A stretch of DNA of 64,000 nt from Planctomycetota bacterium (lineage in GTDB: Bacteria > Planctomycetota > UBA8742 > UBA2392): assembly GCA_003576915.1 (NCBI GenBank), contig QEVF01000003.1, forward strand, positions 177,737-241,736. Direction: 5' to 3'. Positions 17,019 through 50,808 of this stretch are shown here, in pieces. The translations under genes and the position numbers were made by a program. How positions within the stretch are numbered: position 1 is the first letter of the stretch; every line of letters begins with the position of its first letter. The notes beneath the pieces were generated by a model. The model was not told the origin of the DNA. It searched no databases and saw nothing but the letters and a program-made list of their open reading frames with translations.

Positions 17019-17999
17019 ATGCGCTTTATCCTGCTGGCCCTGTTGTTGTTTGCTCCCCTGGTCCGCGCCCAGACTCAGGGTTCGCCTGCCCCTGACTTCA
17101 CCATGGGCGGCCTCAGCGCCTACAGCGACGCCACCACCCGCGCCGACTGCCTGGGCAGTGTCATCGTCATCAAGATCTGGGGCATCACGTGAGCGCCCTG
17201 CCTGCGGCAGTTGCCGCACCTGCAGGAAGTGTGGGAGAAGAACAAGGCGCGCGGCTTGCGCGTGTTTGCGGTGGAAGGCGACGGTCTGACGGCGCTTGAG
17301 AACTTCGCCTTTGCGGGCGAAAACAAGTACACATTTCCGATTGTGACCGCGTCGGAGAGTTCGCTGGCGAGCTGGGACATCAAGACGATGCCCAACACGT
17401 ATGTGGTGAACGCCGAGGGCCTGCTGGTGTTCAAGGGCTCCGAGGGATGGGACGGCATCGTCGAGAAGGAACTGGCCCGGCGCCCCTACACCGGCCTGAA
17501 CAAGGACAAGGTCGAGAAGGACTGCGAGAAGGCGGCGGCGGCCTTTGGCAAGGGTGATTACGTCAAGGCGGCGGAGTTGGCCAAAGCAGTAGTGGAAGGC
17601 AAGCCCTCGGAGGCCGCCGTGGCCGATGCACAGATGATCATCGAGGCCTGTGCCGCCACGGAGCAGAAGCTGCGGGCGGCGGCGGACCTGGCCAAGGGCG
17701 AGAAGCGTTACGCCGATTGCCTGGAGGCCCTGGACAGGCTGGCCTCGGGCTTCAAGGGCACGGAGAGCGGCACGAAGGCTGAAGCGGAGGCCAAGGAGTT
17801 GCGCAAGGACAAGGACGTAAAGAAGGAGTTGGGCGCCTGGCAGGCCCTGCGCCAGGCCCTGGAGTCGAACAAGAAATTGAAGAAGGCCGAGAAGGTGAAG
17901 GCGCTGCGCGGCGTGCAGAAATCGCAGGAAGGCACGGAAGCCGGCGCCAAGGCCAAGGAACTGGCCACGGCCATCGAGGGCTCAAAGTACTTCCGCTGA
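17019..17999 (+). CDS. Selenocysteine-containing exported thioredoxin/TlpA-like protein (in-frame TGA)
   Basis: Read through an in-frame TGA at 17190-17192 this is one 326-residue protein. It has a signal peptide (MRFILLALLLFAPLVRAQ), a TlpA/AhpC-type thioredoxin fold opening with SPAPDF, the active site WGIT-Sec58-APC61, the cis-Pro block TMPNTYVVNAEG, then a charged helical tail of about 160 residues. In TlpA proteins the motif is WxxWCxPC, so Sec replaces the first redox cysteine. The start ATG has GGAG upstream. A stem-loop right after the TGA fits a bacterial SECIS. A paralog with the same TGA and the same total length lies at 49828. Read as stops, the TGA would leave a 57-residue fragment ending just before the active site. 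It probably acts as a periplasmic thiol-disulfide oxidoreductase; the tail may bind partners. Confidence 0.88.
17197..17226 (+). promoter_or_regulatory. Candidate bacterial SECIS element (selenoprotein 1)
   Basis: The element begins 4 nt after the TGA. The lower stem CCTGC (17197-17201) pairs with GCAGG (17222-17226). After a 1x3 internal loop comes a 6-bp upper stem, TGCGGC (17203-17208) with GCCGCA (17213-17218), capped by loop AGUU. The loop G is at 17210, 18 nt after the last base of the TGA, within the spacing known for SelB-binding elements, which need a G in the first two loop positions. It lies inside the coding region. Confidence 0.75.
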
Positions 18000-49827: not shown

Positions 49828-50808
49828 ATGAAGACGCTGGCATGGGCATTTCTCCTGGCCGCGCTGAGTCTGGCTGCGCCCCTGAGTGCGCAGCTCAAGG
49901 GCAAGCCGGCGCCGGATTTCTCGGCGGGTGAAAGTTTGACGGCAAGGCAGGACCACCGCACCCTCGCGGACTGCAAGGCTGAGGTCGTCCTGATCAAACT
50001 GTGGGGCATCAAGTGACCGCCCTGTGTGAAGGCGTTGCCTTCACTCCAGGGTCTCTGGAACGAATACGGAGGTAAGGGTCTCAACATGTTTCTGCTTGAG
50101 TCCCAGGGCACCGAGGAAGGCGCCCTGAAGAAGTTCCTTTCGGACCGCGGCATCACGGCGCCGGTTTACAAGGGCGGCCTGAGCGGCTACGACGGTGATA
50201 ACGGCCTGCCTTTCACCTACGTGATCGGCGTGGACGGCACGGTGGTGTTCGAGGGTCGCGGAGACTACCACTCGGTGGTCAAGAGCGAGATGGCCAAGAT
50301 CAAGTACCCCGGCCTGGGCAAGCTGGAAGTGGCCAAGGGCCTTGAGAAGGCCGCCATGAGCTTTGTCGAGAAGCAGTTCGCCAAGGCCATCGAAGACTGC
50401 AACAAGGTGATCGAGAAGGGCAAGGACGAAGCGGCGGTCGAAGACGCGAAGTTCATCATTGATCGCTGCAACGCCGAGGGCGCGAAGATTCGCGCCAACG
50501 TGGACAAGGCCAAGGAAGAAAAGCGCTACCTCGACGCGTTTGCCGGCCTTGAAACCCTGGCCGTCGGCTTCAAGGGTATGGAGCTGGGCGATGCGGCTGC
50601 GGCTGAACTCAAGGAGCTGAAGAAGGACAAGGAAGTCAAGCGCGAGGTGGATGCCGCGACCGCCCTGCAGCGACTGATCGAAAGCCAGAAGACGGTCAAG
50701 AGCAAGACGGACCGGGCCAAACAGCTGCGCGACTTTGCCAAGAAGAACGACGGCACCCGCGCGGCTGAAGACGCCAAGACGCTGGCCGATCAGATTGAGG
50801 CGGGTTAG
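49828..50808 (+). CDS. Selenocysteine-containing exported thioredoxin/TlpA-like protein, paralog 2 (in-frame TGA)
   Basis: Read through the TGA at 50014-50016 this is a 326-residue protein, the same length as the paralog at 17019. It has a signal peptide (to about LSAQL), KPAPDF at the start of the thioredoxin fold, the active site WGIK-Sec63-PPC66, and FTYVIGVDG at the cis-Pro strand. The final about 150 residues are charged helices (KGLEKAAMSFVEKQFAKAIED; LETLAVGFKGMELG) that match the paralog segment LDRLASGFKGTESG. The ATG at 49828 has GGAG upstream. A SECIS-like stem-loop follows the TGA. Downstream is a Cys-type thioredoxin lipoprotein with WCPYC. Likely a periplasmic redox enzyme; substrate unknown. 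Confidence 0.88.
50020..50051 (+). promoter_or_regulatory. Candidate bacterial SECIS element (selenoprotein 2)
   Basis: The lower stem CCCTG (50020-50024) pairs with CAGGG (50047-50051). After a 1x2 internal loop with a U comes a perfect 8-bp stem, GTGAAGGC (50026-50033) with GCCTTCAC (50037-50044), capped by loop GUU. The loop G (50034) is 18 nt after the TGA, identical to the first element. The U in the internal loop on the 5' side recalls the bulged U of known SelB targets. Confidence 0.78.

Follow-up and report, generated by a model that had tools for sequence, protein, structure and literature searches.

A short hairpin after an in-frame UGA as the probable SECIS element of a ResA-like selenoprotein gene in a Planctomycetota bacterium

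Results and discussion

We conclude that a 6-bp hairpin lying directly downstream of an in-frame UGA codon (17190–17192) in the 64,000-nucleotide stretch of DNA analysed here (the window) is a bacterial SECIS element directing selenocysteine (Sec) insertion at that codon, a reading to which we give a probability of about 0.95. The evidence supports the upper hairpin and its GU-containing loop as the SECIS core (Table 1), while the lower stem and internal loop that can be drawn beneath it are probably without function. The mechanism is a known one; the ResA-like selenoprotein subfamily, which seems to be unnamed in the databases searched, has seven UGA copies in this genome.

Table 1. Positions in the window of the two UGA-containing genes, their predicted Sec codons and the associated RNA elements
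Feature	Position	Strand	Basis
Gene for a secreted ResA/TlpA-like selenoprotein	17019..17999	+	ORF with TGA read through, 326 residues
UGA, predicted to be read as selenocysteine	17190..17192	+	Shared as UGA by seven genes of the genome and by relatives; other homologs have Cys
SECIS core: 6-bp stem 17203-17208/17213-17218, loop AGUU 17209-17212	17203..17218	+	Folding, covariation, excess over synonymous null, TTG bias
Lower stem (17197-17201/17222-17226) and 1x3 internal loop of the sequence-only reading	17197..17226	+	In the sequence, not conserved
Second UGA paralog (UPPC)	49828..50808	+	43% identical, one internal TGA
Predicted Sec codon (UGA) in the second paralog	50014..50016	+	
Second paralog, SECIS core: stem GUGAAGGC/GCCUUCAC, loop GUU	50026..50044	+	Synonymous-null p 0.003; motif shared with 18 relatives

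The UGA-containing gene and its product

The gene starts at ATG 17019, with GGAG 5 nt upstream, and is closed by a second, terminal TGA at 17997–17999. Judged by eye, its product has an apparent signal peptide (MRFILLALLLFAPLVRA); this is followed by an AhpC-TSA/ResA-like domain and then by a helical domain at the C-terminus, with Sec as predicted residue 58 opening the active-site motif UAPC. The Pfam AhpC-TSA match (44.2 bits, cut-off 26) spans the UGA, as does the alignment with ResA structures, in which UAPC falls on CEPC and Sec on the first active-site Cys of ResA. The AlphaFold model (mean pLDDT 92) has a thioredoxin-like fold with UxxC, in place of CxxC, opening the first helix: residue 58 lies immediately N-terminal to helix 59–78, and the position just before such a helix is the usual site of the reactive Cys. 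Foldseek gave as its best matches a thioredoxin-family protein of Geobacter and the ResA of Bacillus.

The likeness to ResA (1st9, 2h1b, 4nmu) extends to the fold and the position of the active site, but ResA itself has Cys there (CEPC) and is without the helical domain at the C-terminus. Because its score stays under the curated NCBIfam ResA cut-off (55.6 vs 170 bits), the product is ResA-like and not ResA proper. We regard it as a predicted thiol-disulfide oxidoreductase of the ResA/TlpA-like kind, secreted and with Sec-Ala-Pro-Cys as its active site, its redox role being the one that the established biology of the system would lead one to expect. The usual annotation would truncate this protein at residue 57.

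UxxC selenoproteins with an AhpC-TSA domain (Prx-like thiol:disulfide oxidoreductases) are already known (PMC9312934). Compared by description, they share with the present product the AhpC-TSA/ResA-like domain and Sec as the first residue of the CxxC motif, and differ from it in that here a C-terminal helical domain of ~150 residues is found, together with an expansion to seven UGA paralogs in a single genome. Window positions 17511–17966 (residues 165–316) match the C-terminal half of the VPGUxxT family model (NF041382), a match also seen in 32 of 35 relatives; the active-site motif is a different one and the score is far from the cut-off (42.8 vs 350 bits). Because of this partial match, the results suggest that the C-terminal helical domain is common to different selenoprotein families. 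The cut-off of the WAxxUGC model (NF041054) was likewise missed (20.2 vs 300 bits). No matching NCBIfam model reaches its cut-off, these two selenoprotein families included, and the subfamily therefore seems to be unnamed in NCBIfam. The selenoprotein literature searched, which took in few subscription papers, contained no account of the subfamily in Planctomycetota and did not mention Planctomycetota.

UGA, Cys and Asp at the same site in homologs

Homologs were sought in the same genome and in 40 relatives (41 Planctomycetota genomes in all), and the column containing the UGA was aligned across 149 sites, 136 of them distinct. UGA occupies 95 of the distinct sites, Cys 23 and other residues (mostly Asp) 18, so that UGA and Cys exchange at the position of a conserved redox Cys. 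Seven UGA paralogs are present in the genome studied, two of them within the window, and the family tree requires at least 13 changes among Sec, Cys and other residues. In the 3.9-Mb genome the family-derived motif TGANNNCCNTGNNTNNNNNMGTTGC matches at four places, each of which belongs to this gene family (reversed-pattern control, 0); across the 41 genomes there were 49, of which 47 lie at family sites by coordinates (control, 2). In homologs listed with two TGAs a second in-frame Sec was considered and rejected, the extra TGA being the normal terminator.

One clade (L017:1501-2469 and 16 related loci, e.g. L072, L073 and L091) has, in place of UxxC, a motif that starts with Asp and contains no Cys (DGTA, DIGS, DLDS). 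The downstream hairpin is absent from these paralogs, some of which stand in tandem with Sec and Cys copies (e.g. L033). They are probably redox-dead copies.

Selenocysteine machinery

The genome, a draft of 87% estimated completeness, encodes SelA (548.6 bits), a SelB (312 bits) with two of the SECIS-binding SelB winged-helix domains, SelD (385.8 bits) and a tRNA-Sec (73.7 bits, cut-off 47), which is located 0.7 kb downstream of selA and has the anticodon UCA according to ARAGORN. The selD gene (L152:1531) has an in-frame UGA of its own, in GAGUGCK, and after it, at a spacing of 26 nt, a hairpin whose loop is CGUGC. UGA stands at the family site in 26 genomes, and 25 of these score above 58 bits for tRNA-Sec. 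The one that does not, a draft from the same order (G016), has UGA in two homologs (L041 and L127) and no tRNA-Sec match above 48 bits, which may reflect a missing contig or loss of the system.

Geometry and folding of the hairpin

The sequence-only reading had described a two-stem SECIS-like element after the TGA, with an AGUU loop whose G lies 18 nt downstream, and each of these parts is indeed present in the sequence. The AGUU loop starts 16 nt after the UGA, and its G (17210), which is 18 nt past the A of the UGA, is followed by U (17211). Folded alone, the 6-bp hairpin gives −10.0 kcal/mol. The 41-nt fold reproduces the two-stem drawing at −20.0 kcal/mol (z −2.5, equalled by 4 of 200 shuffles). 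The pair probability of the upper stem is ~0.99 in three of four sequence contexts and 0.32 in the longest; in the 61-nt context the upper hairpin is retained and the lower stem is displaced by rival pairings. A more stable fold without the apical loop, named beforehand as evidence against the element, was not the case: the best longer fold keeps the apical hairpin.

A generic SECIS-like stem follows 386 of the 1862 TGAs in the window (21%), and such a stem alone therefore means little. The exact geometry, defined as 16-nt spacing, a perfect stem of at least 6 bp and an NGUN tetraloop, occurs after UGA 17190 only among the same 1862. An Rfam search of the window gave no match above the gathering score, and BLAST of the 41-nt element against plasmids gave no match. 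The classic example of a bacterial SECIS is that of E. coli fdhF. When set against the published consensus model with its numeric criteria (PMC13188914), the element lies within every numeric limit, in agreement with the fit to bacterial rules that had been proposed: the hairpin is located directly past the UGA in the coding region, with 16 nt from UGA to loop, a 6-bp stem of the stability given above and a 4-nt loop with G at position 2, then U. It departs from the model in that the spacing is at the lower limit, the GUU loop is nearly fixed in two of the main groups and the lower stem is unconserved.

Conservation, covariation and codon choice

Hairpin stability was compared with a synonymous null in which the protein is kept fixed and codons are redrawn from family usage. 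UGA sites (n=95) fold at −8.4 vs −4.0 kcal/mol for the null, with p≤0.05 in 63% of them. No excess structure is seen at Cys sites (−3.2 vs −3.4 kcal/mol) or at sites with other residues (−3.0 vs −3.4 kcal/mol). SECIS-like stems of 5 bp or more are located downstream of 62% of Sec sites; the corresponding figures are 2% for non-Sec sites, 11% for terminal UGAs and 7% for other in-phase positions. In the narrow geometry that this count used, the remaining 38% of UGA sites are without a 5-bp stem.

Covariation was assessed in 27 distinct AGUU-loop sequences, which were chosen by loop and are related, so that the counts represent non-independent events. Changes on both sides are seen in four of the six stem pairs: pair 16–27 appears as CG, AU, GC and UA, and pair 17–26 as GC and CG. 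Paired cells make up 94.4% (76.2% when shuffled) and the covariation score is 0.441 (0.121 when shuffled), values reached on either measure by 0 of 500 shuffles, and the signal is lost in slid-structure controls. The RNAalifold consensus is exactly the 6-bp hairpin. The third base of the Pro codon follows its pairing partner (CCG/CGG in 21 sequences; CCC/GGG, CCA/TGG and CCG/GCG in one each), and 50 of 55 UGA genes use TTG for the Leu that forms the loop, compared with ~10% over the rest of these genes. Part of the change in the stem is thus silent in the protein. The compensatory change that had been asked of the homologs is clear, in part at synonymous codon positions, and the upper stem with its AGUU loop is real.

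In the second UGA paralog of the window the hairpin is longer still, with 8 bp and a GUU loop, and is probably what the earlier reader had called 'element 2'. Three further UGA paralogs of the same genome (L019, L021 and L022, on contigs C16 and C8) are without a strong GUU hairpin; their codons after the UGA are still family-like, and they may rely on a weaker or differently placed element.

Proposed mechanism and alternative explanations

By analogy with the established selenocysteine system, the winged-helix end of SelB would bind the GU-containing loop of the hairpin and deliver Sec-tRNA (anticodon UCA) as UGA 17190–17192 enters the A site, and Sec would then be inserted instead of termination taking place. 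The terminal UGA of the same gene, where a SECIS-like hairpin is absent, would stop translation. Weighing against the SECIS reading are the three UGA paralogs without a strong GUU hairpin, the 38% of UGA sites lacking a 5-bp stem and the tRNA-Sec result for G016.

We consider it highly improbable that the internal UGA is an ordinary stop in a pseudogene or between two ORFs, with the hairpin a by-product of conserved PCLRQLPHL coding in GC-rich DNA. UGA does terminate normally in this genome, the end of this very gene included, and generic SECIS-like stems are frequent by chance, but a UGA at the exact same codon in seven paralogs and in relatives, with frames intact on both sides, argues against it. 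So does the excess of hairpin structure that persists with the protein fixed, in UGA genes only, as do the choice of TTG and the synonymous covariation, which track the RNA. Just as improbable is the reading of UGA as Cys or Trp, through a reassigned code or near-cognate readthrough, with a hairpin that merely slows the ribosome. This would account for the frame being open past the UGA, yet UGA ends the same genes (27 of 79 terminators examined), selA, selB, selD and a tRNA-Sec with UCA anticodon are all present, and among the 41 non-UGA sites Cys occurs in relatives but Trp never does.

The internal architecture of the element is a separate question, and here it seems unlikely that activity requires the full two-stem structure, in which a 5-bp lower stem and a 1x3 internal loop are added to the upper hairpin. 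The two-stem form is the best fold of the 38–41 nt after the UGA, and the sequence of the element is retained in a 96%-identical copy (L023). However, its lower-stem pair probability ranges from 0.03 to 0.63 across contexts, the RNAalifold consensus has the upper stem alone, and pairs 11–34 and 9–36 can form in only 6 and 10 of 30 homologs, respectively. The upper hairpin of the two-stem drawing is consequently upheld, and its lower stem and internal loop were rejected as conserved parts.

Significance

With seven UGA genes, plus selD, the bacterium exceeds the threshold of six for a selenoprotein-rich organism (PMC5029168). The aligned UGA, Cys and Asp homologs offer a good basis for telling constraint on the RNA apart from constraint on the protein, and for working out which target features a bacterial SelB requires. 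We tentatively suggest, at somewhat less than even odds, that a Planctomycetota family uses a compact class of SECIS, consisting of a short hairpin with minimal spacing, a near-fixed GUU loop and no lower stem, with a co-adapted SelB and an expanded paralog family. If this is true, the Sec, Cys and Asp versions of these genes would constitute dozens of natural experiments in which a recoding signal embedded in codons is gained or lost.
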